A stretch of 64,000 bases of DNA, from assembly GCA_030849075.1 (NCBI GenBank), contig JASAOO010003473.1, forward strand, positions 1 through 64,000, in the 5' to 3' direction. Positions 1,376-24,957 of this stretch are shown in pieces (position 1 is the first letter of the stretch; the number at the start of each line of letters is the position of its first letter). The notes beneath the pieces were generated by a model that saw nothing but the letters and a program-made list of their open reading frames with translations, searched no databases and was not told the DNA's origin. The stretch comes from Zelonia costaricensis. Lineage: Eukaryota > Euglenozoa > Kinetoplastea > Trypanosomatida > Trypanosomatidae. Both the position numbers and the translations under genes were made by a program.

Positions 1376-4300
1376 ATGGCACAGAGCGGCTTCGCAGGGT
1401 GGCGATTGCGGTGGGGTCGCCATCGCACGGCCAGCGCACCTGCCCCGTCCCCTGTCACCGCCTCGCGGTCGATGGTGCTGCCGCTGCTGCTGCTCCTGCT
1501 GTTGCTGCTCGTTGCGGCTCCCTCGGCGCACGCCGCGATGACCTTCACCACCCCAAACGTGCAGCAGGCCTCGCTCTACCAGACGGTCCAGCTGAACCTG
1601 CGGTCAAACCCGCTCCTCGCAGATCCGAGCATCACTACCGGCGACCTCGTCACCTTCGTTCCATCTGCCAGCACGGCGCTGTGCGTGCACAGCGGCACCG
1701 CCACCTCGAGCACCGCAGGGTACTACGCGGTGACCGCCATCGGCAGCGGCGGCTACGCCGGGCAGCTCGTCTTCGCCGTCACGGCCGCCTTCTTTACCGC
1801 CGGCACGACCTACTACCCGTGCTACCTTTCCGCCTCCGCGCAGTCCGCCACGATTGTGCGGCGCGAGTTCGTGGCGACAAACCAGAGCGACGCGCTCACC
1901 GTGTGGACGGCGGTGTACCAGAGCTTCAGCATGAGCCCCACGAGTGCCAGCGGCGGCGAGGGCCCCATCAGCCTCGCCATCCAGCAGACGCAGCAGAGCG
2001 GTCGGGCTCTCAACCAGGGCCTCTCGGGCAGCTACACCGTTCTCCTCGTGTCGTGCGGATCGTCGACGGTGGGTGGCACAACAGTGCAGAGCAACTGCAC
2101 CTCGCTCGACGCGCTCGTCACGGCCTGCGCGGCGGTTGGTGCTGCCAGCAGCGCCGCCTCCACGCCCTCCTCCTCCACCGTCATCGCCCTCTCCAGCCTG
2201 CAGGGGCAGGCCGCCGGCAACGTGAGCGGTGCCTTCGTCGTCCCGTACGTCCCCAACACCAGCGGCTACTACCTGTGCGTTCCCTACTGCTACAGCACGT
2301 CCGCGGGCTGCGGCGGCACGACCACGGCAATGTCGTACACCGTGGTGATGGCCGCCTCCTCGACCAACGCCACGTACACCCTCGCCTTCGGCAGCGCCGA
2401 TCCCGGCGTTTACACCCGTACCCCGTCCGCGCCGCAGGCACGCGAGGACGGCGTGGTGGTGTTCACCGGCACGGGGCTGGGCACCGCCGATGCCGTGAAG
2501 GTGATCCGCAGCACCGACAGCTGCACCTCCAGCACCGCCACCATCCTCCCCGACCTCGAGGTGGGCACCGTGCAAGTGACGTCGGGCACCGTGCAAGTGA
2601 CCTTCCTGGCGCCCAACCTCATCACCGCGCAGGTCGTGGGGCGGGTGTGCTACCGGCGCGCGACGAGCGGCCTGTGGTCCACCGCCTACCTCTCTGCTGC
2701 CAACCCCATCGCAGACTTCACCGTGGACGTGCTGCAGCCAACGGGCTTCACGATTGTCAGCCCCACCACGAGCCCCGCCGTGGGCGAGACGATAACGTTG
2801 ACCTTCCAGGGCACGGGCCTGGGGGGCTCCGTCGACGCGGCGTACCTCTCCGCAAGTACCGAGAGCAACCCGTGCAGCCGCGACAACTCCACGGCAACCT
2901 CGTCCACCTCGAGCAGCAGCAGCACGTACTTCACCTGCACCATGAGCGGGTCGAGCACCACCACGTCGACGTGCGTCGTCATGGTGGACCCGGAGACGAC
3001 GAACGTGGCCATGTCGCTCAGCGTGTGCTACCGCAAGGGCACCGCGACGGCGCAGCAGACCAACTTTGCGGCGATCAGCGGGACGGTGGCGCTGCTCTCC
3101 CGCAACCCGACCTACACCGTGACGCCGTACCCGACGTTCGCCGGCCAGTCCGTGCAGCTCGTCTTCAGCGGAGTCGGGCTGTCGGCCAACGACGCCGTGC
3201 AGCTCATCGCACCGGGCAGCACCTGCGGCAACAGCAGCGCCACGCTTACGACGGCCACCATCACGGGCGTGACGGAGCTCAGCCCGGGCACGTCGTACGC
3301 GTACACGCTCGTCGGCATAGCCGAGACGTGCATCATGATCTGCTACCGCCAGGTCGGCTCCGCCAGCTGGGTGGTCGCCCGCGGCGGAGACGGCCGGCCG
3401 GAGGTGTCGACCAGCTGCGCGGCCTCGAATATCTACATCGCGGCCTTCCCGGTGCGCTACGCCATCACGAACCTCGCCTCCACAGGCATGCAGCTCAGCG
3501 TCGGCGAGACCGGCACGCTGCGCTTCACCGCCGTGAGCGGACAGTCCTTCACCTCGCTGACGACGCCGACGGCTGTGATGCTGGTGCAGGCGCCGGACAG
3601 CTGCGTGACGGCGCCGTGCGGGACGGCGCTGCAGGCGGCGTGCGCGGGGTCGCAGGCGGCGACCGACTACACGAGCTCCGTGGTGGGCAGCGGCAGCGTC
3701 GCCTACTCGGCGTCCATCTATGCGGGCACGGCGGAGGTGCGGTACATCGTCTGTGTCGAGACCTCAAGCGGTGGCTCGAGCGCCTACGTGCCGGTGTTGC
3801 CCTTGACGGAGCTGTCCGCGACGAGCACCGCCTTCGGCTTCACGACGGCGCTGCAGAACCCGACCCTGGTGTCGCACACGCCGAGCACGTGGCGGGTCGG
3901 CATGAACACGCTGACGTCGACCTTCAGCGGCACAGGACTGGACGCGAGCACGAACGTCGTGTACGCCGTGGCCGCGAGCACGCTGCTGGCGGCCTACACA
4001 ACCAGCAGCGGCGCCCTCGTGGCGGTCTGCCCGCCCGTGTCGCAGACCCCGGCGACGGTGCTCGTGTCGTCTATGGTGACAGCGAGCAGCTCGACCACGT
4101 CGACGACGGCGAGCTACACCCGCGCCGACCAGCTCTACACGGGCGCATCCGTGTACCTCTGCTACGCCTGGTCCAGCGGGAGCGGCGATGCGCACGTGAC
4201 GATGGCTGGCCTCGTGAACGTGTCGGCGGCCATTCCGTCCTCCTTCTCCTGGAAGACCCCGACGACGACGACAGGGCTGCGCGCGGGGCAGGCGGTCGTG

Positions 4301-7300
4301 CTGAACTTTGTGAGCAACCTGACGAGTCTCTCCGCGACGGGCGACGCCGTCTACTTTTACCGCTTCATCACCTCCGCGAATCCGAACCCGAACTGCTACT
4401 GCGACCCCACGGCGTGCGCGCCGGGCACGCGCGTGTCCTACGCCGCCAACACCACGCTGACGTCGGCCACCACAGGCAGCATCACGGATGACACGACGGT
4501 CTACACGGCGCCGCTCGGCTTCGACAACTACGACTACAGCGCCGTCTACGTCATCTGCTACGCCGCCGCGGGGCAGTCAGCCGACACGTACATGGGCCGC
4601 GTGACGGTCGACCTGGCGAACCCAACGTACTACACCCTCTCTAGCGTCGCCGGATCGCTGAACCGCGTCGGCGCCCCGCTCACCATCACGGCGGTGCGCC
4701 GGTGCTTGACGACGGCGTGCGCGCTGTCCCTGGGGGACTCCCTGCGGCTTATACCCAGCGATGTGCAGTGCGCCCAGCTCGCGCTGCCCACCTCCGGCGG
4801 CAACTCGTCGGATGCCGTGGAGGACGCGTACGTGGAGGCCATCGGCGACCCCGTGCTCGGCGCCGGCGCCATTTCGCTGGCGCGCGCCTTTGTCGTGGAC
4901 GTGGTGGGGACGTACCGGGTGTGTTACCTCATCTCCGGTGGCACGGCGTACGGCGACGTCGTCTTCTCCGCCAGCTACGTCCGCTCCGTGCTCAGCGTCA
5001 CGTCCGCGAACCCGCTGCAGGCCACCCCCACCCCGAGCGCCCCGTCCGCCGGCCAGTTCGTGACCATAAATATCAGTTGCACCACGACGACGCTGTGCGC
5101 GACGTGCACGACGGTGCGCCTCGTGCCGGGCAGCCGTGCAAGCTGCTGGGCGTCGGTGACGGGCACGTACAGCAGCGACTCATGCCTGACGACGACGGTG
5201 GTGCAGTACCCCAACCAGTACTTTGCCGCCGGCGCGTACACGGTGTGCTACGGCAGCAGCTACACCACGTCGCGCCGCATCCCTGGTGTGCTCACCGTCA
5301 CCGCGGCGAACCCGTCCATTTTCGTGCCCACCACCGCGAGCGGGTACTCGGTGTACACGAACCAGGGCACCAACTACACGCTGAACATCACCGGCACGCA
5401 GCTCAGCGTCAGCGACACCGTGTTCCTCTTGCCCAACATGGGCTACACCTGCCACGACCTCCGCACCGGCGAGGTGCAGAGCGACGGCCAGCTCGCCAGC
5501 TGGCTCGCCCCGAGTGTCGCGCCGTACCCGCTGCAGCTCATCACGGAGGGCGTCTCGTGGGTGGTCTCGAACCAGGGCAAGCGCTTCGGCATTGGCGTGC
5601 TGAACGACACGGACCTCTGCCCGGGCGATGAGGCACCGTGCGCGATGAAGTTGTGCTACCTGCGCGCCGGCACCTCGTGGGCGCCGGTGACGCTGCAGAC
5701 GTCCACCACGGCGTCGTCCGCGTCGTCTGAGGTTTACCTCGTCGCCTCGAACCCCTCCGCGGTGGAGTTCGACCGCTACCCGCTCTTCGTGGACATGTAC
5801 GTGATGGCCACCGTGCAGGGCGCGGGTCTCGAGAGCACCGACGTGGTCGCCATCCACGCGGGTGACTGCAGCGGCGCCGCCGTCACGGTGGCCGTGTCCG
5901 GGGCGTCGTTCGTGAACGCTGCGGGCACGCAGTGGCAGGGCGTGCTGCGCGCGACGGCGGCGGCGAGCAGCTACGCGGTGTGCTACTGGCGGTCCGGGTC
6001 TGCCACCGAGGTGGCGACGATTAGCTTCGCCGGCGAGGCGGCCGACGTGACGACCATCGTCATCATCAGCACGCCGCTGTACTACATGCTGAGTCCGTCA
6101 AACTTCACGTCGGCGACGACGGCGCTGACGCAGTACGAGCAGCTCATCGTTGGCGGCAGCTTCAGGGCGGAGGGTACGCCGGGGACGAGCCTCAGCTACG
6201 TCCAGCTCATCACGGCGAACACGTCCGTGGCCGAGTGCAACTACGCCCCATTCACGGCCGCCGCGGCAGCGGCCTCGGCGACCGGCATCAAGACCTTCCC
6301 AATCGTGCTGACGCTCTCCGCTGTGACGAGCAGCAGCGGCAGCACGCTGCCCTTGTACCAAGGCCGCCTGAACATTGCGACGGGGGCGTACGCGCTGTGC
6401 ATGGACGCGACAGCAGGTCTCTTCCGCGTCATCTCAACACCCCCTGACGCGGACGGGGCCTCGTTGTCGCCCGGCGGCAGCGGCACCAGCGCCAGTAACG
6501 TCACATCCCTGGTCGTGTACGACGCCGTGCCCGCCACGTACGTCGTGGTGCCGGACAGCGTCATGGTGGGGCAGGTCGCCACCCTCACCTTCACCCGCGC
6601 GGTGTCCAGCACCACGAGCGACCCGTACCCCGCGCCCGAGTCCGTCGGCCTCGCGGCTGGCGACACCGTGACACTCATCGACGGCGGGCTGTACGAGTGC
6701 GGGTTCGCGAACGCGACGGTGTTGGCGACCGACATCGCGTCCGCCGTTCCCGGGAGCGGCGGCACCGGCACCGCCACCTCGACGACGGTCTCGCTGGGGC
6801 TGCCGACGACGATCGATGAGGGCGGCACCGCCGTGGCGGTGGGCGGCAAGAGCTACACGGTGTGCTACGGCAAGCAGACCGCCACCTTCGCCACCTCGCC
6901 GCACACGGGCAGCAGCACGGTGGACCGCAACTTGTACATCATGACGCAGGTGCCAACGCAGTGGACCTCGGTGCCGGCGCAGGCGCAGACGCAGGCCCCG
7001 CTCAACATCACCTTCTACGGCAACACGACGGAGGCCGCGTACCTGACGGCGGCGGACGTGGCCTTTCTCGTGTCGGTGAGCGCCGGCACGACGCCTCCCC
7101 TGCACCTCTGTGCGGACGCCGCGAGCGATGCAAGTAGCAGCAACAGCAGTGCGGACCGCATTGTTATTCGGGCGGGCACGATGACCAAGCCGGGCACGGT
7201 GAACACGCAGTGGGCCATCCCGGCCGGGCAGCTGATCGAAGGGACGTACGTGGTGTGCTACACATCGGAGAAGAACGGCATGCCGGTGTACGTCAGCTCG

Positions 7301-10300
7301 CCGGCCACCCTCGAGGTGTACGCGACGCAGTCGCCGAGCGGGGCCTACCTCGCGCGCGATGCGGCATCGCTGGTGAACAACCTGGACGTCCTGCAGGGCG
7401 AGCGCGTCTTTCTGATGTTCAACACGACCGTGGCGCTGAACCCGCAGCTGAACAACACGGGCGACAGCGCCTCCCCCTCTGTGACAAACACGGCGTACGA
7501 CGAGGTGCGCATCACCACCGACAGTGCGTGCACCGCCGCGCTGGGCGTCGGGGTCGTCGACGCCATTCCAGACAGCTTCGGCTACGCGGCGCTCGGGGTC
7601 GTGGACCCGGTGACGGGTCTGACCGTGCCCTACCTGCACCTCCGCATCCGGGCTAGCGTCGGCAGCTACTACGTGTGCATGCGTCGGAAAAATCGCGAGA
7701 GCTCGCAGGCGTACTACAACTTCGAAGTGGTGGGGGGCCTGTACGTGAACCCCGCCGTGCTGGAGGTGGCCGCCGCCGCCGTGGCAAGCTTCACGACGAC
7801 GCCGACGAAGCCACGGGTGTGGGTGCCGCACACCGTGGTGACGGCCACCTACGGCACCGGCTTCAGCGTGAGCAACATGGTGCAGTTCTTCTTCGTCGCC
7901 TTCACGGGCAGCGGCAGTGTGACGGGCAGCAACGAGATCGACGGGGACGCCTGCTACCTCCCCCTCACGTCCTCGCAGGCGTCGTCTTCGTCCGTGACGC
8001 TGGTCAATACGACCCTGCAGGTGTACCTGACGACGCCGATGTTCACGCAGTACAGCTTCGGGGTGCCGGCCACGTACCTGCTGTGCTACCAGACCAGCGG
8101 CCGCAACGTCGCCTCCGTCTACCCCACCGCCCTCACCGTGGCCAACCCCAGTCCCATCACGTACGCCGTGCCCAGCGCGCTGGCCATCCAGAACAGCTTC
8201 ACGATGAGCTTCGCCGCCATCGACGCGATCTTCGCCACAGGCAACAGCAACACGGCGCAGATTTACGTGGCGAGCGACGCGACCTCGGTGCCGAACTGCA
8301 CGGGTGCGACGCCGCCGACCAGCGGCACCACGCACTTCACAAGCTTCACGGCGACGAACACGACGTACGCGAGTGTGGAGCCGCGGCTGCTGGCGGCCGG
8401 CTACTTCTTCGTCTGTTTTCTCACCTACGACCAGGCGCAGTACTTCCCCGTGGCCAACATCGCCGGCGGCTACGTCTTCTCTGTGGGCATGACAGGGGCC
8501 CAGAGTTATACCGTGGCGCCGTCGCCCGCGTACCTGGGCCAGCTGCTGCACCTCACCATCACCGGCAGCCAGCTGACCAGCAGCGATCACGTGAAGATTG
8601 TGCGGGTGTGGAAGTCGGAGCTGAGCGGGAGCGGCAGCGAGACGAGCAGCGGGGTGAGCTACACCTCGGCGTGCACGGCCAGCGCGGCGAACGCCGACGC
8701 GAGTGAGGCGGCGGGGGCGGCGGGCAGCGCGGTGCACAGCGTCAACGGCATTGTCGCGAACTACTACCCCCGCGTGAACGAGACGGGCACGTTCGTTCTG
8801 TGCTACCAGAGCGCGGCGCTGGCCAACGCGTGGATTTGGGTCACGGACATCAACCAGTTCACCGTGGGGCCGGCGCACCCGACCCACTACGGCCTCTCCG
8901 TCACCCCGCCGTACGAGACGGAGGTGCTGCAGCTGTACGTCTACGACACGGGCGACAGCGGGGGCACCAGCGCGGGGCGGCTGCAGTCCACCGACGCCCT
9001 CAAGCTCGTCACGCGTGGCAGCGGGGCGAGCGGGTTCGACTGCACGGCGAGCGCGACGAACAGCACCGCCGTGGGGCTCGTCACGTACATGGCCGCCGTC
9101 AGCAACAGCAGCGTGCACGTGTACCAAATCTGCGGCTCCGCCGTGGCGACGGTGACGGTGTGCTACGCGCTGGCCGGCTGGGCCACCGTGGCAAATGGCG
9201 GAACGCCGAGCTGGGCCGAGGTGCCCCTGCAGTCCCCGCCGTCCACGTACGTCTACGCCGGCGTCGCCATCACGGCGAACCCCTTCACCGGACCGATCAA
9301 CAACGGGAGCAGCAGCAGCGCTACGTGGGTGGCGCCGCGGCCGTACGAGCCCTTCACCTTCTACTTCACCTCGCAGGTGTCCACTATGGCGGTGCAGCGC
9401 GTCGCCTTCGCACGGGCGCCGGTCACGGTCTGCGCCGTCGCCGTGGCGTACGTGACGCCGCTCTACTACACCCAGGAGACGGCGGTGGCGAATGGGTTCA
9501 CCGTGTCGCTGCCGTACGCCGGGGCCTACGCGTTGTACCTCGGCCCCTACTCCACCGCCGCGTCGCCGAACATCACGCACGGCACGACGCTGACCGTGGG
9601 CACGTGCGACCCGTGCACGTTCACGCCAAGCTACGCGTTGGTGGGCGGCTACGTGCTCATGGCCTTCCCCAGCAGCGTCGGCGGCACCCTCAGCACCGCC
9701 GACGAAGTGCGGCTCTTCCCCGTGTCGCAGGGCCTGACGGGTCGCCCGTGCGACGCCGTGACGGGCGCCTACGCCGGTGTCACCTTCACCGCACTCGCCG
9801 CGGAGAGCACGAGCGACCGCGCCGTGTTCAACGTCACGACCGGCACGACGGCGCAGGCGAGCACGTACCTCGGCGAGTACTACGTTTGCTACCGCAAGGT
9901 GCCATCCTCGTCTTCGGCGGCGGTGCCCAGCGAGTTCGCCGTCGTGGCGGAGAACAGCGGAACGGCGTCGATCTTCTCCATCTACCCGGCCGACCTGCTG
10001 ACGGCGACGGCGTGCCCGGCGTCGCCGGTGTACGCGCTCGAGACGGCCGTCTTCAACGTGACGGCGCGCAACACGACTCTCTATCCCAACGTGGCCTTCA
10101 GCGCCGCCGACGAGCTGCTGCTCGTGCCGTTGGGCAGTCGCGGTAGCGGGAGCAGCGGCACTAGCAGTGCCGGCGCCGACTGCGCGGCGGTGGGCAGCGC
10201 CGCGGCGTCCTTCGTCGCGGCGACGGGTGAGCGGGCGCTGCTGGCGACGCTGGACAGCTACGGCCCTGGTGCCTCGAACTGGTTCCTCACCTTCCCCTCC

Positions 10301-13300: not shown

Positions 13301-16300
13301 GCGACGGCAGCGCTTGTGCCGGGCTCGCTGAACGTCACGACGGGTCCGGTGCAGTGCGTCGAGAACGCGAGCTTCATCTCTGGCCAGACGCAGCTCGTGA
13401 CGTTCCGCCTGGAGGAGGGCACCAATGTCACGGACGACGCGTGGCGGCTTTCCTTCTACGCGACGACATCGCTGAACTGCGATGAGCGCTACGTCGGCGA
13501 CTTCGTGCCCGGCTCGGCGCAGCTGCAGTCCACGACGAGCACCTCCGCGACGTACTCGGTGGTCTGGCCCGTCGGGCTTGGCGTGACGACCGACCGGTAC
13601 ACCATCTGCTTCACCCACAACGGCGTGGTCAGCACGGTGTGCACGTGCGGGCAGATCGACGCCAGGACGGGCGAGTGCTACATCACCGGCACGCCAGGCT
13701 CGCCGCAGAGCTTCACGCCGGCGCCGCAGCCGACGTACGTGGGGCAGACGATCAGCCTCACCTTCACTGTGAACGAGTCCATGACCGCGTACCCGCCCAC
13801 GGCCGTCAAGTTCGTCACGTACGTGAACCCGCTCTCCTCGTGCAACGCCGCCCCCGCCTTTACGCCGTCGAGCGCCACCCTGACCCGCGTGAGCGCCGTC
13901 GAGTACGTCTACGCCTTCAAGCACGACTACAGCCTCGGCAGCGCGACGCTGATGGTGTGCGCGCTGACCGACCTGTCCACCTCGTACGGCCGCGTCGCCT
14001 CCACCGTCGTACCGTCGTCGCCGACGACGAACAACACGCTGTGGATACGGCCCTACCTCGCCCTGTCCACCTTCCCGAGCGCCGCCGCCTACCTCAGCGC
14101 GATGCAGACGCTGAACCTGACCTTCACCATGGCCAGCCAGCAGCAGGACGACCTCGTCAGCGCGGCGGACCGCATCACCGTCGTCAGCGACCCGCGCAAC
14201 TGCGTCGAGTCCTTCATCGAAGCGCAGGACCCGGCCACTGTGATGCAGGCCTTCTACATCCCCGACACGGCCTTCCTGACGCTGCCGGCGCCGGTGCTGG
14301 CCGCCTATCCGGCGGCCTTCGACTCCACCTCGCTCGCCACCTTCGCCGACAACGCCAGCGGGCGGGGCACGCACTACTTCTGCTACCTCCTGGCTGGCGC
14401 CACGTGGGCGCCGGTGCTGCCCGCGCTGACCATCACCGCGGGTCTCATCGACAGCTGCTCCGTCACGGGCGCGGTGAGCCCGCCGAACGGCGACGCCGGC
14501 AGGTCGACGACGGCGCCGACGAACAACGGCGGCTCGCTGCGGGCGATGTACTACGCCCCGACCCGCATCCTCGGCACGGCGGCCTTCGGCTCGCTCGCGG
14601 TGGGAGGGGTGGACGCGGTGCGGGTCGTGCCGCAGAGCTCGTGGTGCACCAACGACGCGACAGCCGTCTTCACCGGTACCGTGGCGGACTACGCCGGCAG
14701 TGCCGCGGCCCCGTCGTCCAACAACAGCGTCGAGGCTGTCTTCTTCGCGCCGCTGGCGGGCACCTTCAAGCTGTGCTACCGCTTCGCGAATGCGAGCACG
14801 ACGAACTGGAGCCCGGCCTGCACCGGCCTCGCCGTGACGGCGCCGACGCCGACGGGCGCCACGGTGGGATGCTGGAACGTCGGCCAGGCGATGAGCATCA
14901 CGGCGCAGCAGGCGCTGAGCGGCTACGTCTTCACCGCGACGGACCGCCTGCGCCTCGTGCAGGGTGCGCTGCCCTGCCTCAACGCCAACGGCTCCCTGAC
15001 GGCGTCCGCGGCGACCGTGACGGTCGACGACGCGGCGCAGCCGACGTACGGCATCACGATGTCCACCGTGACGACCGGGCAGACCTCGTACGCGATGGCG
15101 CCGGCTTTCTTCCGGGCCGGCACGAGCGCCGTGCGGCTCTGCTACACCGACGCGGCGGGCAACCAGTTCGCCGTGCCGATGAACTACGCGGCGAGCCCCG
15201 CCGTGTCGAGTTTCCCGGTGCAGGCCCGCCAGCCCACCGCCTTGACCCTCCCCCAGCAGCACATCCAAGTCGGCCAGCGGCTCTTCCTCAACTTCACCGC
15301 TGCGCCGGCCACGGTGACGCCGCCGCTCGACCCCTACGCGGCGCTGCCGTCGCCGTACGTGCCCGGCCCGGCCTTCAACGGCAGCTACGACGCAGCGACG
15401 CTGCTGGCGGTGTCGAGCAGCACGGCCTACGCGGACGGTCGGTGCGCCGTGGCGCTGCGGGCCGGCACTCTGACAAGCGCCGCCTTCCGCGGCGTCTACG
15501 GCAGCGCCATCAGCGGCTACGTCCCCTACACGATTGGCAACTACGACCCGACCGCGGCGCAGTACTACATCACGTGCTACCAGCTCGCGGCGTGCGGGGT
15601 GGTGGACAGCGGCGACCCGCTGCAGGTGCGCAACGCAAACCCGGCGAACGTGTACACCGATGTCAGCCCACCGCGGCGCGGGCAGCTATTCGACGTCCTC
15701 TTCCAGCGTGACACGACGACGTCGGACGCCGCTGTCCTGACGCCCGGGAGCGACCGCGCCAGCAAGTCGGCCAACCTCGCCTCCTGCTGGACGCTGAGCG
15801 CGACCGCTGGGCAGACGGTGCTGGGAACGTCGGACCTGACGTACTTCACCACCATCTTCTACGCCCAGGCCCCGGCGCTGGCGGCGAACACGACGACGCG
15901 GAGCTGCTACTATCTCGCAGGCGGCAGCTGGTCCGAGGTGCCCAACGGCGTGGCGACGGTGCTGCCGGCGAACCCCGCAAGCTTCGACACTGTGCCGGCG
16001 GCGGCGCGGGTGAGTCAGGTGAACTACATCCGCTTCTACGGAACAGGGCTTGGCAGCGGCGACAGCGTGAAGCTTATCGCCCTGTCGTTGAACTGCAGCG
16101 CGGCCGCGGTGCCGCCGACGACGTTCCAGGCGTACACCTCGAGCTCACCGACCACGGGCGTCACGGGCACGGCGCAGGGCTGGACCGTCACGGAGGTCAG
16201 CGGCGACGGCACGACGGCGTCGCTGAACTTCACGGCGAGTGCGACGGGGACGTTCAGCGTGTGCTACCGCCTTGCGACGGACACGGTGTGGACGCTCGTG

Positions 16301-19300
16301 TACGCCGACCTCACGATCTACGAGCGCAACCCGAGCGCTGTGGTGCGCACCCCGGTAGCCACGCTGGAGGGCGAGCTCTTCACGCTGAACTTCACCGCCT
16401 CGACGCAGGCCAGCTCGGGTCTGTCCGCCAACGACCGCATCATCCTCTACTACGGCGCCAGCGTGAATTGCCTGGCCCCGACGTCGGAGCAGACCGCGCC
16501 GTCGGTGCAGGCCGACCCGTCCCGCACGGACACACTGCCGCAGTACATCGCCTACCAGCTGGCCGCCGGCACGCGCGGCAGCTACACGCTCTGCTACCTC
16601 ATGGCCGCCTCCACGGTGTCGGGCGGTTTCATCACGGTGTGGGGCTACGACGTCGTGGTGGTGGGCGCGAACCCGGAGAACATGACCCTGTACCCGGTGC
16701 GCACCTCGCAGGTGCACCGGCCGTACGAGCTGCTCACGCTTGTGTTCGAGGGCTGGGGCCTCGTGGCGACGGAGGCCAAGACGGACGCCGTAAAGCTGAT
16801 CCAGGCCGGTAACAGTGCCGCGTCGTCGGCCTCGGTGACGGACGCCATGTGCCAGCAGACCGCCGCGGTGACCTCGACCATCACGTACTACCCCCTCTAC
16901 GCAAACGGCACGGCGGCGGAGCAGGTGTGGCGGGTGACGTCCGCCGGCGTCAACGTGCCGTACGCCGTGTGCTACAAGCTGAGCGGTGGGCAGTACCACG
17001 CGATTGGCGCACCAATCACCATCACGGGGACGGCCAGCCCGAGTGGGGCGACCTCGACGAAGCTGGCGGGCACGGCGGGTGCGACGACGACCATCTCGGT
17101 AGGCGAGTCGATGACGTGGGCGCTGACGGGGGCCACAGCGGAGTCGTGCGGCAACGGCGCGGCACTCCTCTTCTTCAGCGTGCAAGGCTGCAACGACGTG
17201 CGCTACTACGAGAACGTCACAGCCATCCTCGCCTCCAGCGCGCTGACGTCGCTGACCTTCCCGGCGGGTGCGGCGACGGTGACGAACTGCAGCGGCGCGA
17301 CGCAGCTCCGCGTGCCGACATCGTTTACGTTTGCGTCGTCGAGCCCGGCGAGCGGCGCGGACGCGACGCTGTCGCTCTGCTACTGGAGCGCTGGCAACGC
17401 GGCGGTGTCGGTGCTCTCGGACAGCCGCATCACGCTGACCGAAGGCGTCCCGCCGCCCCTGACGACGACGCTCGCCGTCGACGCGCAGGCCGTCTTCTCC
17501 TTCAACCTGTCCGTGAGCCCGACCACGACGGACTGGGTCGTGCTGGTCGCGGACGCGTCGGCGTGCCTGGGCGTGAGTGCACCGGCCAACGCGGCGTACT
17601 TCACCAACCTCAGCTACAGCAGCAGCGCCGGCGTGGCAACCGTCACGGCCGCCGTGCCGGCCGCGGGCAGCTACTATGCGTGCTACTCGCACCAGGACGG
17701 CGCGTGTGCGGCCAGCACGGGCCGCGAGTGCGCTCGAGTCGTCGCGGCCATCGACGCCGCCGCCGCAAGCCCGAGCGCGTGGGCTGCGCAGCCGACGCCG
17801 CTGTACGTGTCCACCGCATCCCTCGTCGTCACGCTGACCTTTGCGAGCAGCAGCGACGCCGCGGCGCAGGGCAAGACAGCCGTGGCGTGGCTCGCCAGCG
17901 TCTCCAGCGCCACCATGCAAGACGTTTGGCTGGCGTGCGCGCAGACGCGGGCGACGCCGACGGCGGCACGAGTCAACCTGACGTACGGCGGGATGGCGTG
18001 GACGACGGCGGGGCTGCCGCTGACGCAGTCGGGCTCGTACGCGCTGTGCTACACTGCGACCAGCAACGCAGCCGACGCACTGCACCTGTTCGGCCCAGCG
18101 TCCGCAGCGGGGCCGGTGGTGCTGCCGAGCGCTGTCACGGGCGTCACACTGCCGCCCTTTGTGACTGTGGGCACCACAAACACGATCGTGCTCGCCGGCG
18201 GTGGGCTGTCGACGACCGACGCGGTGGTGGCCGTGGCCGTGCCCATCCTCAGCTCCTCCTCTGGACCGTCGTCGACGTCGAGCGGGCTGCCAGCGGACAT
18301 GTGCACGAACACGGCCTACGCGCCCCGCGTCGTCGCCACAAACCCCAGCTCCACCACCGCCGCCACGGGGCTGTCGTCGATGGCGCGCGACCTCGTCTTC
18401 AGTGCGACCGGCGCCTACGTGCTGTGCTACACCGCCACGTACGGCGGCACGCCGACGCTGATCACGGCGGCGCCCTTCACGGTGTCGCCGAGTGTCGTCA
18501 GCATGACGGTGCTGAGCCCCGTGGTGGAGGTAGGAGTGGTGCTCGAGCTCATGTTCTCTGGCAGCGGGCTGACCGCCACGGACCTCGCCGCCGTCGTGTA
18601 TACCGGCGGCCTCACGACGACGCCGACGGTGGAGAACGTGTGCCTCAGCGCGGCGGCCACGTACACGGCCGTGACGTCGGCGACCGCGGACGGCAGCACG
18701 TCCTACTACAGCACCACGCCGATGCAGCAGGGGACGCACATGGTGTGCTACCGCAAGTCGCAGACGAGCACGCCCATCCTCCTGCCCACGAAGCTGAACG
18801 TCGTGGTGCGGACCGCGGCGAGCGCCATCTTCTCGGTGCAGCCGGGCGGGTGCGCGACGCTGCTGACGTGCACCGTGCAGCCGACCGTCACGCTGGTCAA
18901 CAGCTCCGGCCAGGCGACGGCGGCGCCGTACAGCACCGTGAGCATGGCTCTGTACAACAGCGACGGCACCACGGCCGCGCCGGACGGCTACCTGTCCGGC
19001 GGCACGGCGTACACGAGTGTCGACTTCACGAACTTCACCTTCTGGGCCCTGCGCATCTCGACAGCCGGCACGTACGTCATGAAGGCGACCGTCACGCTGG
19101 GCGGCAGCGCGGCGACGCTGGTCGCCACGTCCGCGGCGATCACCGTCACGGACGGTGGCAGCACCGTCGTCAACGTGGCATCGGTCGCGTGTCTGCCAGT
19201 CGGCATCCTCGACCGCACGACCGGCTCCACGGCGGACACGGTGGACTGCCTCGTCACGACGCTCATCAGCGACGCCCCAGACAGCTTCACGGTGCAGCTC

Positions 19301-21766
19301 AACGCCGGCACGGCCACCGCCGTGACGCAGAACGGCACGACCAGTGCCGGGCTGCCGACCTACCACTTCATCGTGACGGCCCCCGCGGCCTCCTCCGCCA
19401 CGGCGGGGCTGGTGAACTACCTCGCCATCGTCGTCGCCCCCAGCCCGCCGTACGCGGCGTGGCCGGTGCAGAACTCACCGGTGACAGTGCGGCTGGCGAC
19501 CTCGCCGGGCCCGCAGACGTCGCTGACCTGCTCGGCCGGGTCGACGTCGCTGCCGCAGTCGAACATGGTGCGCGTCGGTGGGACGCTGAGCTGCGGGGTG
19601 CAGGGCATCCTGAAGGTGGGCAGCGAGGTACGCAACATTGTTGCCCCGCCGCAGGACTTGCGTGTGATAGAATACTACAACGCCAACACGGGCACGACTC
19701 AGACCATCAACCTCGGCGCCTACCCGCTTGACGTGAATGGACTCTACAGCTTCACGGTGACGCCGAGCACCGGCCTCAACATCACCGTCGCGGGCACGGT
19801 GTACGCGAGCGAGGCGGACACCGTCAGCGGCACCACGGCGGCGTCGGTGTGGTCGCCCATGGTGAACAGCCCGCAGACCTTCGTTCTCGTCGGCGTGCCC
19901 ACCGCGGCGGCATCGACGCTGGCCTGCGTGTCGCTGCGCACCGGGTCGGCGCTGTGGTACACCCCGGCCGAGCCGCTTGCGTGCACCGCCGCGCTGGCCA
20001 ACGCGCAGGGCCAGGTGATCGGTGTCCAGGGCGACTACACTGTCGTGCTGCCTAACGGCGGCAGCGTGGGGGCCGTCAACTCGTCCACGTGGGGCCCGAG
20101 CCTCGTCTGGGACATCAGCGCACCGCCGCAGTCGCCGTCGCCCACGGCGGCCGCGGCGCTGCTGTCTGCCCCCGCGGCGCCGGCCCTGTCGCCGCCACAG
20201 CCGCAGCGCGTCGCGGTGCGCGAGCTGGCCGCCGCGGCGCTGGTGAGCTTCGCGGTGCAGGTGCAGTACACGCCGTCGTCCCTCGCGCTGGCCTCCTACA
20301 CGGGTGGCCTCGTGTACGTCACGTCCGCCGTGGACCCGCTGCCGACGCTGACGATCGGGGCGACGGCGAGTTTGACGGTGGCCGGTGTGGGGCTCGTGAC
20401 GACGCACCGCTACGCGCTCGGCGCGCCCGCCAACTGCTCGCAGGTGCTGGCAGAGACAACGCCGACGGCCGGCAGTGCGGTGGGGCAGCTCGTGCTGACC
20501 TTCCAGGTGCCCAGTACCGTCTTCGTGCTGTGCTTTGCCCCAGACGACGCGCGGGCCGCGCTGCAGACCCTCCTCACGACGGAGTGGACGCCGAAGTCGG
20601 GTGGCGACTCGAACCGGTGGAGCGGGGACGACCTCGTCCTCCTCATCATCGGCGTCGTCTTCCTCTTCATCCTGCTGGTGCTGCTGCTCATTCTGCTGTG
20701 GTGCATTTTCTGCAGCCGCGCCGAGGACGAGGAGGGCGGCAGCAGCGATGTGACAGTGCGGGAGAAGCACGTGACGCGCAGCACGACGCACACGACGATG
20801 GGGGGTGGGCACGTGTACATGCCGCCGCGCGCCAACAACCGGTACATCCTGCGCCCTGGCACGAGCCCGTCGCCGGCCACGGCCGCGGCCGCCCTCCCCT
20901 CACCGCAGCCGCAGCCGCAGCCGCTACCGCAGCCGGTTCCACTGCCCATTGAACACTCCACGACTCCGCCAGCGACCCCGCCGCTCTCCCCAGCGCCGCA
21001 GCCGCAGCCACAGCCGCAGCAGCCAAGCAGCAACACGCAGATCCGCATCAACATCCACGACAACGCCGCGGCCGGAAGCAACCCGATGTCGTCACCGCGG
21101 CAGCAGCAGAGCACGTCAGCTCCAGCGCCGCCGCCGTTCTCCAGCAGCAGCGGAAGCACCAGCGTCAGCAGCGATGCCGTGGGTGGTGGCGCTGCGGGGC
21201 CGGCCACGCTGCGCAGGCGCCACAACCGGCCGCGCCGCGCCGATAAGAGCCGCGCGTACACCGACCTCGACCGCGACGCACGAGCGCCACAGCAGCAGCC
21301 GCCAGAGTCGGACTCGCTGACCGACACGAGCGGCGTTGCCAGCCGCCGGTCTGCGCCCCCGCTTCCCCCACCGCCAGCGGCGGCCGCGCGCACCTCCTCG
21401 CCCCCCGTCACACGCACGCCAGCACCACCATCGGTGCCCGCCGCAGCCGTCGCGTCCGCTCTCACGCCGCGTCCGGCGCCCGTCGCCGAGTCTGCAGCCA
21501 ACATGGCCATCAGCCTCCCGCCGCTTCCACCCGCGCCTCCGCAGCCGACAGCGACCGCCACCACCGTCGGGGCCGTCGCGATCGTGCCGCCCACCCCAGC
21601 GCCCACGTCCAGCGGGCCGTACCAGCACCTGCACCACACAACCAGCTCGCAGCGCAGTGCGAGCGAGCACGGCTCCACCGACGACGCCGCCGGTGGGCCG
21701 ATGATGGTGGCGGGCCACACGTCGAAGCCGATGGTGCGCTCCGCATCCTCGTCACGTCGCTCGTAG
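1376..21766 (+). CDS. Giant type I surface protein with about 47 VCYR-type modules
   Basis: An uninterrupted 6796-residue frame. I know no named family for it, and its function is unknown. A signal peptide is clear: Met33 followed by a poly-Leu core and a PSAHA-A cleavage-like site near residue 54. Translation may start at Met1 or at Met33 (base 1472). From about residue 55 to 5800 the chain is a series of degenerate modules of about 120 residues. A typical module reads NP-x-x-Y-x-V-x-P, then V-G-Q-x-V-x-L-x-F-x-G-T-G-L, then D-A-V-x-L-I with a Cys, then G-x-Y-x-V-C-Y-R and a closing L-x-V-x-x-x-NP. I counted about 47 VCYR-like cores. The two regular Cys per module suggest a disulfide, and the beta-rich pattern suggests Ig/E-set (IPT/TIG-like) folds; both are inference. 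N-glycosylation sequons are abundant. A transmembrane helix lies at about residues 6420-6446, followed by an Arg-Ala-acidic stop-transfer and a cytoplasmic tail of about 350 residues rich in Pro/Gln/Ser. An adhesion or cell-surface structural role is plausible but not shown. Confidence 0.93.
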   Translation: MAQSGFAGWRLRWGRHRTASAPAPSPVTASRSMVLPLLLLLLLLLVAAPSAHAAMTFTTPNVQQASLYQTVQLNLRSNPLLADPSITTGDLVTFVPSASTALCVHSGTATSSTAGYYAVTAIGSGGYAGQLVFAVTAAFFTAGTTYYPCYLSASAQSATIVRREFVATNQSDALTVWTAVYQSFSMSPTSASGGEGPISLAIQQTQQSGRALNQGLSGSYTVLLVSCGSSTVGGTTVQSNCTSLDALVTACAAVGAASSAASTPSSSTVIALSSLQGQAAGNVSGAFVVPYVPNTSGYYLCVPYCYSTSAGCGGTTTAMSYTVVMAASSTNATYTLAFGSADPGVYTRTPSAPQAREDGVVVFTGTGLGTADAVKVIRSTDSCTSSTATILPDLEVGTVQVTSGTVQVTFLAPNLITAQVVGRVCYRRATSGLWSTAYLSAANPIADFTVDVLQPTGFTIVSPTTSPAVGETITLTFQGTGLGGSVDAAYLSASTESNPCSRDNSTATSSTSSSSSTYFTCTMSGSSTTTSTCVVMVDPETTNVAMSLSVCYRKGTATAQQTNFAAISGTVALLSRNPTYTVTPYPTFAGQSVQLVFSGVGLSANDAVQLIAPGSTCGNSSATLTTATITGVTELSPGTSYAYTLVGIAETCIMICYRQVGSASWVVARGGDGRPEVSTSCAASNIYIAAFPVRYAITNLASTGMQLSVGETGTLRFTAVSGQSFTSLTTPTAVMLVQAPDSCVTAPCGTALQAACAGSQAATDYTSSVVGSGSVAYSASIYAGTAEVRYIVCVETSSGGSSAYVPVLPLTELSATSTAFGFTTALQNPTLVSHTPSTWRVGMNTLTSTFSGTGLDASTNVVYAVAASTLLAAYTTSSGALVAVCPPVSQTPATVLVSSMVTASSSTTSTTASYTRADQLYTGASVYLCYAWSSGSGDAHVTMAGLVNVSAAIPSSFSWKTPTTTTGLRAGQAVVLNFVSNLTSLSATGDAVYFYRFITSANPNPNCYCDPTACAPGTRVSYAANTTLTSATTGSITDDTTVYTAPLGFDNYDYSAVYVICYAAAGQSADTYMGRVTVDLANPTYYTLSSVAGSLNRVGAPLTITAVRRCLTTACALSLGDSLRLIPSDVQCAQLALPTSGGNSSDAVEDAYVEAIGDPVLGAGAISLARAFVVDVVGTYRVCYLISGGTAYGDVVFSASYVRSVLSVTSANPLQATPTPSAPSAGQFVTINISCTTTTLCATCTTVRLVPGSRASCWASVTGTYSSDSCLTTTVVQYPNQYFAAGAYTVCYGSSYTTSRRIPGVLTVTAANPSIFVPTTASGYSVYTNQGTNYTLNITGTQLSVSDTVFLLPNMGYTCHDLRTGEVQSDGQLASWLAPSVAPYPLQLITEGVSWVVSNQGKRFGIGVLNDTDLCPGDEAPCAMKLCYLRAGTSWAPVTLQTSTTASSASSEVYLVASNPSAVEFDRYPLFVDMYVMATVQGAGLESTDVVAIHAGDCSGAAVTVAVSGASFVNAAGTQWQGVLRATAAASSYAVCYWRSGSATEVATISFAGEAADVTTIVIISTPLYYMLSPSNFTSATTALTQYEQLIVGGSFRAEGTPGTSLSYVQLITANTSVAECNYAPFTAAAAAASATGIKTFPIVLTLSAVTSSSGSTLPLYQGRLNIATGAYALCMDATAGLFRVISTPPDADGASLSPGGSGTSASNVTSLVVYDAVPATYVVVPDSVMVGQVATLTFTRAVSSTTSDPYPAPESVGLAAGDTVTLIDGGLYECGFANATVLATDIASAVPGSGGTGTATSTTVSLGLPTTIDEGGTAVAVGGKSYTVCYGKQTATFATSPHTGSSTVDRNLYIMTQVPTQWTSVPAQAQTQAPLNITFYGNTTEAAYLTAADVAFLVSVSAGTTPPLHLCADAASDASSSNSSADRIVIRAGTMTKPGTVNTQWAIPAGQLIEGTYVVCYTSEKNGMPVYVSSPATLEVYATQSPSGAYLARDAASLVNNLDVLQGERVFLMFNTTVALNPQLNNTGDSASPSVTNTAYDEVRITTDSACTAALGVGVVDAIPDSFGYAALGVVDPVTGLTVPYLHLRIRASVGSYYVCMRRKNRESSQAYYNFEVVGGLYVNPAVLEVAAAAVASFTTTPTKPRVWVPHTVVTATYGTGFSVSNMVQFFFVAFTGSGSVTGSNEIDGDACYLPLTSSQASSSSVTLVNTTLQVYLTTPMFTQYSFGVPATYLLCYQTSGRNVASVYPTALTVANPSPITYAVPSALAIQNSFTMSFAAIDAIFATGNSNTAQIYVASDATSVPNCTGATPPTSGTTHFTSFTATNTTYASVEPRLLAAGYFFVCFLTYDQAQYFPVANIAGGYVFSVGMTGAQSYTVAPSPAYLGQLLHLTITGSQLTSSDHVKIVRVWKSELSGSGSETSSGVSYTSACTASAANADASEAAGAAGSAVHSVNGIVANYYPRVNETGTFVLCYQSAALANAWIWVTDINQFTVGPAHPTHYGLSVTPPYETEVLQLYVYDTGDSGGTSAGRLQSTDALKLVTRGSGASGFDCTASATNSTAVGLVTYMAAVSNSSVHVYQICGSAVATVTVCYALAGWATVANGGTPSWAEVPLQSPPSTYVYAGVAITANPFTGPINNGSSSSATWVAPRPYEPFTFYFTSQVSTMAVQRVAFARAPVTVCAVAVAYVTPLYYTQETAVANGFTVSLPYAGAYALYLGPYSTAASPNITHGTTLTVGTCDPCTFTPSYALVGGYVLMAFPSSVGGTLSTADEVRLFPVSQGLTGRPCDAVTGAYAGVTFTALAAESTSDRAVFNVTTGTTAQASTYLGEYYVCYRKVPSSSSAAVPSEFAVVAENSGTASIFSIYPADLLTATACPASPVYALETAVFNVTARNTTLYPNVAFSAADELLLVPLGSRGSGSSGTSSAGADCAAVGSAAASFVAATGERALLATLDSYGPGASNWFLTFPSQAATVQYSWCFKMQYDTVFRNISDALQTVQMEDPYDVATSPPVILPDSTSVQIQITGTGLLATDNVYIVEAAESCAETCDRPLTPTEWSGAAHTVQHVNSTTVLVVFSQSINTIISLGVCYRRTGRYLTRLTNIYVGEPNPISYTVNFVPRVGTRPTLTFTGVNLTSTDAMMIVQPTATCLVRNAIAVGTFLSINNGATTTQFLLALVGSAVLAQNYTVCYEVSTVGAYVEVAPELPVLEGGPSSVTSSNTPMRGRATVLSVADPQAGDEMFIACVGCSCFDLTEAIVPYGSVRATANVTMALRVGFNDTQSYPICYRRSDSGYAQVGGLTYFVTPVTNSPSTVAQLPNGAQYQGQRLHYNVSNYSTAVPLGGNDLVMLVHASRACWDNLDISTSGIVVSTSALTGTVPTAPEIGEWAAHVPSLGPDTPASTLFPLSYLLCYRQAAQLEYVSVPYVMESTTLAAADPATFTTQPASVQSGMLQVNMTFTYVAAGQSGDEAYVVQFPTLTDTVCDDAASAVVAARASAYPVYTFSLSGSAVPGTSNTAVCYVRAGATVAEVPQLLTVTAGNPSGYVTDVSSGATALERQYIAVTVLGTGLSTASDAVVFTDVPCASAPQPFTSTSYLARLSDATSNGTAYTVVAQFVAASSPLDIYVCYRHSNVWREVGAALTLNAPQPSTVTVITSGGTTSTPRAGQHLSLGLVNAPASTPTGAAILSGATNGSGTWCHNFTASDVQEPSLVIWSAALLDIPVWEVAGDARVCVLANATTPWADVATTVDAAAIYINPANPSSMDVFPSPPRVGQSVTLTLHLLVTANAADVVKITTVDYVSCEVAATIPGFAATMPVTVQDNVTTTVTLVDETDVFAWRSFNATGAYRVCYHSAVELSWGVVGGTLAAGTVTVQEMVPQTWAIASGTALIGEPFALAFYDALGVLQPSAGEDLVWAAPSTTSCGQDPYTCTGCVLFDWNTTASNATVAVTLANVSVRVDNMNLCYQLANATAALVPGSLNVTTGPVQCVENASFISGQTQLVTFRLEEGTNVTDDAWRLSFYATTSLNCDERYVGDFVPGSAQLQSTTSTSATYSVVWPVGLGVTTDRYTICFTHNGVVSTVCTCGQIDARTGECYITGTPGSPQSFTPAPQPTYVGQTISLTFTVNESMTAYPPTAVKFVTYVNPLSSCNAAPAFTPSSATLTRVSAVEYVYAFKHDYSLGSATLMVCALTDLSTSYGRVASTVVPSSPTTNNTLWIRPYLALSTFPSAAAYLSAMQTLNLTFTMASQQQDDLVSAADRITVVSDPRNCVESFIEAQDPATVMQAFYIPDTAFLTLPAPVLAAYPAAFDSTSLATFADNASGRGTHYFCYLLAGATWAPVLPALTITAGLIDSCSVTGAVSPPNGDAGRSTTAPTNNGGSLRAMYYAPTRILGTAAFGSLAVGGVDAVRVVPQSSWCTNDATAVFTGTVADYAGSAAAPSSNNSVEAVFFAPLAGTFKLCYRFANASTTNWSPACTGLAVTAPTPTGATVGCWNVGQAMSITAQQALSGYVFTATDRLRLVQGALPCLNANGSLTASAATVTVDDAAQPTYGITMSTVTTGQTSYAMAPAFFRAGTSAVRLCYTDAAGNQFAVPMNYAASPAVSSFPVQARQPTALTLPQQHIQVGQRLFLNFTAAPATVTPPLDPYAALPSPYVPGPAFNGSYDAATLLAVSSSTAYADGRCAVALRAGTLTSAAFRGVYGSAISGYVPYTIGNYDPTAAQYYITCYQLAACGVVDSGDPLQVRNANPANVYTDVSPPRRGQLFDVLFQRDTTTSDAAVLTPGSDRASKSANLASCWTLSATAGQTVLGTSDLTYFTTIFYAQAPALAANTTTRSCYYLAGGSWSEVPNGVATVLPANPASFDTVPAAARVSQVNYIRFYGTGLGSGDSVKLIALSLNCSAAAVPPTTFQAYTSSSPTTGVTGTAQGWTVTEVSGDGTTASLNFTASATGTFSVCYRLATDTVWTLVYADLTIYERNPSAVVRTPVATLEGELFTLNFTASTQASSGLSANDRIILYYGASVNCLAPTSEQTAPSVQADPSRTDTLPQYIAYQLAAGTRGSYTLCYLMAASTVSGGFITVWGYDVVVVGANPENMTLYPVRTSQVHRPYELLTLVFEGWGLVATEAKTDAVKLIQAGNSAASSASVTDAMCQQTAAVTSTITYYPLYANGTAAEQVWRVTSAGVNVPYAVCYKLSGGQYHAIGAPITITGTASPSGATSTKLAGTAGATTTISVGESMTWALTGATAESCGNGAALLFFSVQGCNDVRYYENVTAILASSALTSLTFPAGAATVTNCSGATQLRVPTSFTFASSSPASGADATLSLCYWSAGNAAVSVLSDSRITLTEGVPPPLTTTLAVDAQAVFSFNLSVSPTTTDWVVLVADASACLGVSAPANAAYFTNLSYSSSAGVATVTAAVPAAGSYYACYSHQDGACAASTGRECARVVAAIDAAAASPSAWAAQPTPLYVSTASLVVTLTFASSSDAAAQGKTAVAWLASVSSATMQDVWLACAQTRATPTAARVNLTYGGMAWTTAGLPLTQSGSYALCYTATSNAADALHLFGPASAAGPVVLPSAVTGVTLPPFVTVGTTNTIVLAGGGLSTTDAVVAVAVPILSSSSGPSSTSSGLPADMCTNTAYAPRVVATNPSSTTAATGLSSMARDLVFSATGAYVLCYTATYGGTPTLITAAPFTVSPSVVSMTVLSPVVEVGVVLELMFSGSGLTATDLAAVVYTGGLTTTPTVENVCLSAAATYTAVTSATADGSTSYYSTTPMQQGTHMVCYRKSQTSTPILLPTKLNVVVRTAASAIFSVQPGGCATLLTCTVQPTVTLVNSSGQATAAPYSTVSMALYNSDGTTAAPDGYLSGGTAYTSVDFTNFTFWALRISTAGTYVMKATVTLGGSAATLVATSAAITVTDGGSTVVNVASVACLPVGILDRTTGSTADTVDCLVTTLISDAPDSFTVQLNAGTATAVTQNGTTSAGLPTYHFIVTAPAASSATAGLVNYLAIVVAPSPPYAAWPVQNSPVTVRLATSPGPQTSLTCSAGSTSLPQSNMVRVGGTLSCGVQGILKVGSEVRNIVAPPQDLRVIEYYNANTGTTQTINLGAYPLDVNGLYSFTVTPSTGLNITVAGTVYASEADTVSGTTAASVWSPMVNSPQTFVLVGVPTAAASTLACVSLRTGSALWYTPAEPLACTAALANAQGQVIGVQGDYTVVLPNGGSVGAVNSSTWGPSLVWDISAPPQSPSPTAAAALLSAPAAPALSPPQPQRVAVRELAAAALVSFAVQVQYTPSSLALASYTGGLVYVTSAVDPLPTLTIGATASLTVAGVGLVTTHRYALGAPANCSQVLAETTPTAGSAVGQLVLTFQVPSTVFVLCFAPDDARAALQTLLTTEWTPKSGGDSNRWSGDDLVLLIIGVVFLFILLVLLLILLWCIFCSRAEDEEGGSSDVTVREKHVTRSTTHTTMGGGHVYMPPRANNRYILRPGTSPSPATAAAALPSPQPQPQPLPQPVPLPIEHSTTPPATPPLSPAPQPQPQPQQPSSNTQIRINIHDNAAAGSNPMSSPRQQQSTSAPAPPPFSSSSGSTSVSSDAVGGGAAGPATLRRRHNRPRRADKSRAYTDLDRDARAPQQQPPESDSLTDTSGVASRRSAPPLPPPPAAAARTSSPPVTRTPAPPSVPAAAVASALTPRPAPVAESAANMAISLPPLPPAPPQPTATATTVGAVAIVPPTPAPTSSGPYQHLHHTTSSQRSASEHGSTDDAAGGPMMVAGHTSKPMVRSASSSRRS
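18790..20630 (+). other. Membrane-proximal segment of the giant protein lacking VCYR modules
   Basis: After the last regular VCYR motif (near base 18740, residue about 5788) the next 600 residues lose the module signature. Cys pairs occur in contexts such as GGCATLLTC and VACLPVG, and beta-rich Thr/Val/Ala/Gly stretches continue. A single VLCF-type motif reappears at about base 20528, just before the membrane helix. It is probably a set of different beta domains forming a membrane-proximal stalk, which is inference from position and composition. Confidence 0.5.
20634..20712 (+). other. Transmembrane helix of the giant protein
   Basis: About 26 consecutive Leu/Ile/Val/Phe-rich residues (core LLIIGVVFLFILLVLLLILL) end in WCIFC and are followed by SRAEDEEGG. 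This gives a type I orientation with the module array outside. It is the only strongly hydrophobic segment besides the signal peptide. Confidence 0.9.
20713..21763 (+). other. Proline/glutamine/serine-rich cytoplasmic tail
   Basis: About 350 residues of low complexity. There are PQPQPQP series near bases 20905-20940 and 20994-21022, PPLPPPP- and PPLPPAPP-type polyproline motifs near 21355 and 21518, and a basic RRRHNRPRRADKSR patch near 21210-21255. Polyproline motifs of this kind can bind SH3 or profilin-like partners, but no partner can be named from the sequence. The protein ends in a Ser/Arg-rich segment. Confidence 0.7.
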
Positions 21767-23850: not shown

Positions 23851-24957
23851 ATGACGTCCACCAACGGTCAGATCAACACGAATGAGCTGCTGTACCTGAA
23901 CAAGGCCGTCGTCTTCGGCTCCGGTGCCTTCGGCACGGCGCTGGCGATGGTGCTGTCGAAGAAGTGCCGCGAGGTGTGCGTCTGGCACATGAAGGCGGAT
24001 GAGGCAAAGCTCGTGAACGAGAAGCGCGAGAACGTCATGTTCCTCAAGGGCGTGAAGCTCGCCACGAACATCACCTTCACGTCCGACGTGGAGGAGGCGT
24101 ACAAGGGGGCTGAGATTATGCTCTTCGTGATCCCGACGCAGTTCCTGCGCGGCTTCTTCAAGAACAGCGGCGCCAACCTCATCAAGTACGTAAAGGACAA
24201 GCGTGTGCCCGTGCTGGTGTGCACCAAGGGTATTGAGCGCTCGACCCTCAAGTTCCCGGCGCAGATCGTCGGGGAGTTCTTCCCGGAATACCCGCTGTCG
24301 GTGCTCGCCGGCCCGAGCTTCGCCATCGAGGTGGCCAACGGCGTCTTCACGTGCGTCAGCGTCGCCTCGTCGGACATCAACGAGGCGCGCCGGCTGCAGC
24401 GCATCTTGACGACGGGTGACCGCTCCTTCATTTGCTGGGCCACGACCGACACGGTCGGCTGCGAGGTGGCCAGCGCCGTGAAGAACGTGCTCGCGATCGG
24501 GTCTGGCGTGGCCAACGGCCTTGGCATGGGCCTCAACGCCCGCGCCGCCCTCATCACCCGCGGCCTGCTCGAGATCCGCGACCTTACCGCCGCGCTGGGC
24601 GGCGACGGTAGCGCCGTCTTCGGCCTGGCCGGCCTTGGCGACCTGCTCCTGACGTGCTCGTCCGAGCTGTCACGCAACTTCACGGTGGGCAAGAAGCTTG
24701 GCGGTGGCATGCCGATCGACGAGATCCAGCGTACGAGCAAGGCCGTCGCCGAGGGTGTGGCCACGGCGGAGCCGCTGATGCGTCTGGCGAAGCAGCTCAA
24801 GGTGTCGATGCCGCTGTGCAAGCAGATCTACAAGATCGTGTACGAGAAGAAGGACCCGCAGTCCTCGATTGTGGATCTCCTGTCGTACAGCCTGCAGGAC
24901 GAGGGTCTCCCGTCGCTCTTCGGCAAGAACGCCGCGACGACGCCGTCGAAGCTGTAG
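23851..24957 (+). CDS. GPDH: Glycerol-3-phosphate dehydrogenase [NAD+], glycosomal
   Basis: The 368-residue enzyme interconverts dihydroxyacetone phosphate and glycerol 3-phosphate with NADH/NAD+, and in kinetoplastids it balances NAD inside the glycosome. The NAD-binding loop GSGAFG is at residues 23-28. Active-site elements include CTKGIE at 124-129, GPSFA at 154-158 and AVKNVLAIG with the conserved Lys211. The family signature GLAGLGDL with downstream CSSELSRN spans about 258-276. The C-terminus is SKL, a canonical PTS1 glycosomal import signal. Length and sequence match Leishmania GPDH closely along the whole chain as I know it, the N-terminal about 15 residues being the most divergent. 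It is the last gene of the plus-strand cluster, directly before the convergent strand switch. The start is the first Met after the splice acceptor. Confidence 0.97.

Follow-up and report, generated by a model that had tools for sequence, protein, structure and literature searches.

A giant predicted surface protein of trypanosomatids carries a conserved array of about 47 two-cysteine modules

We analysed a 64,000-nucleotide stretch of the Zelonia costaricensis genome (positions 1 to 64,000 of contig JASAOO010003473.1, assembly GCA_030849075.1; hereafter the window). Within it, a single forward-strand frame at 1376-21766 stays open for 6796 codons and encodes a giant predicted surface protein, most of which is an array of modules built around a VCYR-like core. 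Because the contig starts at window base 1, the gene upstream of the giant falls outside the sequence. The features of the locus, with the evidence for each, are as follows.

1376..21766, + strand: giant surface protein, open frame of 6796 amino acids (aa), with at least 18 homologs at E<=0.001
1469..1537, + strand: signal-peptide-like hydrophobic segment, residues ~32-54 (hydropathy cluster at residues 27-57, maximum 2.62)
1538..2278, + strand: two degenerate N-terminal, membrane-distal modules, residues 55-301 (module hidden Markov model (HMM), independent E-value (i-E) 1.5e-5 and 1.0)
2384..18817, + strand: VCYR module array, residues 337-5814 (HMM matches, block comparison with reversed control, 40-module alignment)
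2756..2992, + strand: stretch at the Pfam TIG (PF01833) cut-off of 20.9 bits (20.8 bits, or 21.2 when neighbours are counted)
15965..17047, + strand: three consecutive predicted beta-sandwich modules, residues 4864-5224 (AlphaFold2, predicted local distance difference test (pLDDT) 89.0, predicted template-modelling score (pTM) 0.81)
18818..20575, + strand: juxtamembrane beta-rich region, residues 5815-6400, mostly without VCYR cores (block comparison, model, VIA neighbours)
20618..20725, + strand: transmembrane segment, residues 6415-6450 (hydropathy cluster, maximum 3.71)
20726..21763, + strand: proline-rich tail, residues 6451-6796, cytoplasmic by topology (translation, motif counts)
20816..20845, + strand: conserved tail motif YMPPRANNRY (loose pattern, 22/24 sequences)
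21713..21736, + strand: conserved C-terminal motif GHTSKPMV (loose pattern, 20/24 sequences)
23851..24957, + strand: NAD-dependent glycerol-3-phosphate dehydrogenase, the downstream neighbour and synteny anchor (PF07479 and PF01210)

Signal and transmembrane segments were assigned by Kyte-Doolittle hydropathy, which yields exactly two clusters of 19-mers with a mean of at least 2.0 (residues 27-57 and 6415-6450). As these are the only two hydrophobic segments, the likely topology is a signal peptide, an ectodomain of ~6360 residues, one helix and a tail of ~346 residues. The two clusters thus supply the N-terminal signal-like segment and the single C-terminal transmembrane helix of what is likely a type I membrane protein. 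A preliminary description of the locus, made from the letters of the sequence, had already read a signal peptide, module array, one transmembrane helix and tail in a single uninterrupted frame, and both frame and hydropathy bear this out. Long antisense open reading frames lie opposite the gene (up to 1385 aa, among them 6434-10591 on the reverse strand); they are probably a by-product of codon composition.

The repeat nature of the chain is real. A module profile built from 19 modules in 8 orthologs, with the window protein's own modules in the training set, gave 40 matches to the window protein at i-E <= 1e-3, 45 at <= 0.1 and 47 at <= 1, the last set including one near the membrane and outside the array (residues 6324-6391) and one at E 1.0 (residues 181-301). 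The original estimate of about 47 modules was thus a fair one. Module spacing, measured between 45 hand-picked cysteine anchors, is 122 +/- 15 residues. We then cross-tested odd against even modules, using 26 units picked for a spacing of 100-130 residues and 31 control proteins (1 reversed and 30 locally shuffled). The split-half profiles recovered 8/13 and 11/13 held-out units (19/26 in all) at i-E <= 1e-3, with zero matches at that threshold in the 31 control proteins. At i-E <= 0.1 each profile produced 29 control matches over the same proteins, and weak single-sequence matches therefore mean little.

Comparison by hhalign of 52 ortholog-based blocks, cut at cysteine anchors of our choosing, likewise placed self-similarity above the controls. 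Leaving out adjacent pairs, whose similarity is partly an artefact of 14-residue overlaps, 168 of 1275 block pairs aligned at a probability of at least 50 and 51 at at least 90, compared with 0/1275 non-adjacent pairs at 50 or above when blocks were reversed. A non-adjacent partner at probability >= 50 over at least 50 columns was found for 36 of the 52 blocks. The 16 without one comprise four C-terminal blocks (5832, 5958, 6073 and 6203), block 301 and eleven blocks spread through the array; several of these eleven do find partners across shorter stretches. Within the window protein, the best-scoring pairs of different modules share 27-32% identity.

To describe the module itself, we aligned 40 units, including the first N-terminal module; as these had been picked by the profile, their cysteine conservation is partly by construction. 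The cysteine of the VCYR core is invariant among them, and an earlier cysteine and the tyrosine are each present in at least 90%, in agreement with the two cysteines per module first noted. Two further details of that description hold in part: NP at the module border is literal in 12/40 aligned modules by reading but not elsewhere, and closure on a VCYR-like core applies to the array but not to blocks 5832, 5958, 6073 and 6203, for which the block comparison gave no sign of a relation to VCYR modules.

This architecture is shared widely among trypanosomatids. A first homolog search returned at least 18 proteins (E <= 0.001) of 4909-7420 aa, from Novymonas, Leishmania species, Leptomonas, Porcisia and Phytomonas among others, a lower bound because only candidates sharing most words were scored. 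Searching from a divergent member added Phytomonas Hart1 and Trypanosoma congolense TCIL3000_8_3470 (6290 aa), and a third search added T. equiperdum (4972 aa, a shorter model) and T. conorhini. Across 22 aligned full-length sequences (short models P0013 and P0023 omitted), several of which are close relatives rather than independent cases, 137/146 cysteines are invariant and 99.2% of cysteine cells are kept. Relative to the window protein, these sequences show no indel as long as 60 residues anywhere from residue 55 to residue 6400; long insertions at the N-terminus are confined to homolog P0015.

The T. congolense ortholog, 34% identical across 6106 aligned residues, keeps 143/146 cysteines. 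All 40 modules find their best match at their own position in each of three species, T. congolense, Phytomonas EM1 and L. major (foreign modules cut by the same alignment). Since modules match by position across species and cross-module pairs are far apart at the identities given above, the duplications predate the divergence of Trypanosoma from the remaining lineages. Judged from these alignments, the gene is colinear across Leishmaniinae, Phytomonas and Trypanosoma, with no sign of a unit gained or lost since Trypanosoma parted from the others. A fast-evolving repeat antigen is not favoured given the 40/40 positional matches in each of three species. Both ends are less conserved: of 54 segments compared with Trypanosoma, the two N-terminal modules (residues 55-301) belong to the six lowest, and the tail is the lowest of all (25%).

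An AlphaFold2 model of three consecutive modules (residues 4864-5224), computed with 15 orthologs, is all-beta and confident (pLDDT 89.0, pTM 0.81), giving repeated beta domains rather than disorder. Its top Foldseek neighbours are the Dictyostelium filamin rod, human filamin A and ICAM-5; its top VIA-align neighbours are plexin C1, a reovirus shell protein, plexin A4 and CD109, followed lower down by filamin, CGTase (cyclodextrin-glucanotransferase) and bacterial invasin. All have Z <= 8.5, and these neighbours therefore give a fold class and not a close relative. The proposed chain of immunoglobulin (Ig)/E-set-like beta domains is thus supported for the three modules that were folded.

Family assignment is less direct. 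Scanning the whole protein, cut in thirds, with Pfam and NCBIfam yielded no usable match; at E<=10, Pfam listed no TIG and no Ig family, and no Ig family was among the Pfam matches of the 40 separate modules. TIG (PF01833) was the sole family to recur in module searches. It matches one module (window 2756-2992) in a search of the organism's own genome at 20.8 bits, or 21.2 counting neighbours, around a cut-off of 20.9. It matches 2/40 modules at E<=1 (best 1.8e-4) and one of eight orthologs of the TIG-matching module, below cut-off. An hhalign comparison with a TIG profile from the same genome placed 0/52 blocks at a probability of 10 or more, and is uninformative because this six-sequence profile also missed its own left-out members (6/6 under 20). 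PDB sequence searches of the chain, one of which took the C-terminal third alone, found nothing significant, and the 40-module alignment profile matched antibody heavy-chain variable (VH) domains weakly (best E 0.022); the cysteine pair of the module seems to be placed differently from that of Ig. We regard the module as a candidate very divergent IPT/TIG-like domain. The earlier statement that no described family has this module is accordingly upheld by the scans in thirds but tempered by PF01833 at cut-off on one module.

The likeness to IPT/TIG lies in the beta sandwich and in the high rank of plexin and CGTase chains as structural neighbours; plexins and CGTases carry IPT/TIG domains. In contrast, 38/40 window modules have no TIG match at E<=1, and they add a cysteine pair with the VCYR core over ~120 residues, compared with 84 profile positions. 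The filamin rod and ICAM-5, an Ig-superfamily adhesion chain, share tandem beta sandwiches with the giant and provide the best Foldseek rows; they differ in that identity in these rows is ~10-13%, TM-scores over the whole chain are low, and the giant has ~50 domains and belongs to a protist.

Within the same genome, two protein queries (residues 376-1008 and 4861-5814) found the gene itself alone, although very divergent copies would be missed. Three other long frames with TIG matches, on contigs C502 (L002, L004, L008), C476 (L003, L006) and C417 (L005), resemble the giant in length and in these matches but differ in that the stretches searched contain no match to the VCYR-module HMM. The C502 frame is 5398 aa long with three TIG matches, and its later part is reminiscent of fibrocystin/PKHD1-like proteins. 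The C476 and C417 frames are 2059 and 2712 aa long; the L003 translation shows hydrophobic segments by eye.

Near the membrane the chain changes character. Blocks 5832-6203 have no non-adjacent partner at probability >= 50 over >= 50 columns, and the juxtamembrane region (residues 5815-6400) is modelled with lower confidence (pLDDT 75.8, pTM 0.45), with velvet, FdeC, invasin and S-layer domains as VIA neighbours. In the tail, a YxPPRxNxRY-type motif recurs in 22/24 sequences and a GHT(S/A)xPMV-type motif in 20/24, by loose patterns widened after a stricter attempt missed the GHT motif in 4/21 homologs and the other in more. Because the tail overall is poorly conserved, these two motifs stand out as candidates for docking sites, a role they may possibly serve. 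A third tail motif, SGPYxHL (window 20726-21763), is found in 8/24 sequences, from the window species, Novymonas, some Leishmania, Porcisia and T. conorhini.

Gene order offers a route to the identity of the gene. In homolog P0015 a protein kinase (HRDLKP motif near residue 158) precedes the giant (residues 760-7213), most likely a fused gene model. We take the Leishmania glycerol-3-phosphate dehydrogenase to be LmjF.10.0510. A published table equates LmxMPK3 with Tb927.8.3550 and LmjF10.0490 (PMC2813431), and Tb927.8.3530 is glycerol-3-phosphate dehydrogenase (PMC5879877). If the P0015 kinase is MPK3, the flanking identifiers imply that the giant should be Tb927.8.3540 and LmjF.10.0500; these are interpolated, as are the 0550 numbers. 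The Leishmania tag LdCL_100012200 suggests that the gene is on chromosome 10. Neither LmjF.10.0500, LmxM.10.0500, Tb927.8.3540, TCIL3000_8_3470, LdCL_100012200 nor LinJ/LdBPK 100550 occurs in the open-licence main texts searched (several of the identifiers are interpolated). We found no study of the gene, which is apparently unstudied. Annotations of many trypanosomatid genomes already list its product as a conserved hypothetical protein, so that its description as an undescribed system stands for the literature searched by identifier but not for annotation. Orthologs P0005, P0007, P0013 and P0024 bear the automatic name 'Hemagluttinin family protein', for which Pfam and NCBIfam scans of the window protein give no support.

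Another trypanosomatid type I membrane protein with a signal peptide is KIAP1, a Leishmania haptomonad adhesion protein. KIAP1 is LmxM.01.0010, has a C-type-lectin-like ectodomain and is reported to be absent from Trypanosoma (PMC11322530). The giant gene differs in its chromosome 10 position by the LdCL_100012200 tag and in its presence in Trypanosoma, and Pfam scans of the giant, of which two stretches were folded, showed no lectin family. We rejected the KIAP adhesion proteins as its identity, the KIAP1-4 identifiers being on other chromosomes.

On balance we lean towards the giant being a fixed-length extracellular tether, a reading we hold to be somewhat better than even. The ectodomain would be a chain of ~47 two-cysteine, divergent IPT/TIG-like beta-sandwich modules, with several beta domains of a different type between it and the membrane. 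Its outer end or some mid-chain modules would attach to a partner on an opposing membrane or surface, the helix would anchor the tether in the membrane, and short motifs of the proline-rich tail would link it to the cytoskeleton or to a sorting adaptor. Surface proteins made of repeats often change quickly in unit number, by gain and by loss. A frozen unit count, fairly even conservation and no unit turnover fit a part whose geometry matters, such as a tether of set length, and this frozen architecture favours a structural tether over a fast-evolving host adhesin. We infer pairing of the cysteines, an extended chain, selection on its length and the binding of a partner. The flagellum and flagellar pocket are contact sites in trypanosomatid cells, and we would place the giant in association with one of them; a role in adhesion or flagellar contact would be plausible. 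We entertain more tentatively a molecular ruler: a ~50-domain cable, general in trypanosomatids and made of a new two-cysteine E-set-like family, would space flagellar and facing membranes with a domain count constant since the Trypanosoma/Leishmania split. At ~4 nm per domain the cable would, if extended, reach up to ~0.2 micrometre.

Several other explanations were weighed against the tether. In one of them, the giant is an endocytic or scavenger receptor residing in the flagellar pocket, with domain groups binding different ligands and sorting motifs in the tail. This would suit the type I topology, the long chain of distinct modules conserved over its whole extent and the short conserved tail motifs. 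We consider it unlikely, as the scans gave no receptor or lectin family above cut-off and the tail motifs match no sorting signal among those testable. Rather less probable is the host- or vector-facing adhesin or antigen ('hemagglutinin') implied by the automatic names in several species. Surface topology, a C-terminal region resembling FdeC and invasin in fold, and less conserved first N-terminal modules all agree with it, yet the same chain persists, without module gain or loss, in lineages of plant, insect and mammal hosts and is single copy by two protein searches.

We give little credence to a mastigoneme-like subunit of a surface filament along or shed from the flagellum. The structural match behind this idea is one of many Ig-like ones with a similar score, and the giant has its own transmembrane segment and conserved tail motifs. 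A gene-model artefact, or a low-complexity frame that yields no folded protein, might be suspected from the long antisense frames and the Ala/Thr/Ser-rich composition; we reject this as having a negligible chance, given the invariant cysteines of the orthologs and the confident three-module fold (pLDDT 89).

Across Phytomonas, Leishmania and African trypanosomes, the 40 modules tested and almost all of the 146 cysteines stay in register, a pattern that points to a conserved structural role. The gene is common to parasites of people, animals and plants, and its product is predicted to lie at the surface. These findings raise a direct question: whether the length of the chain matters, and at which contact.
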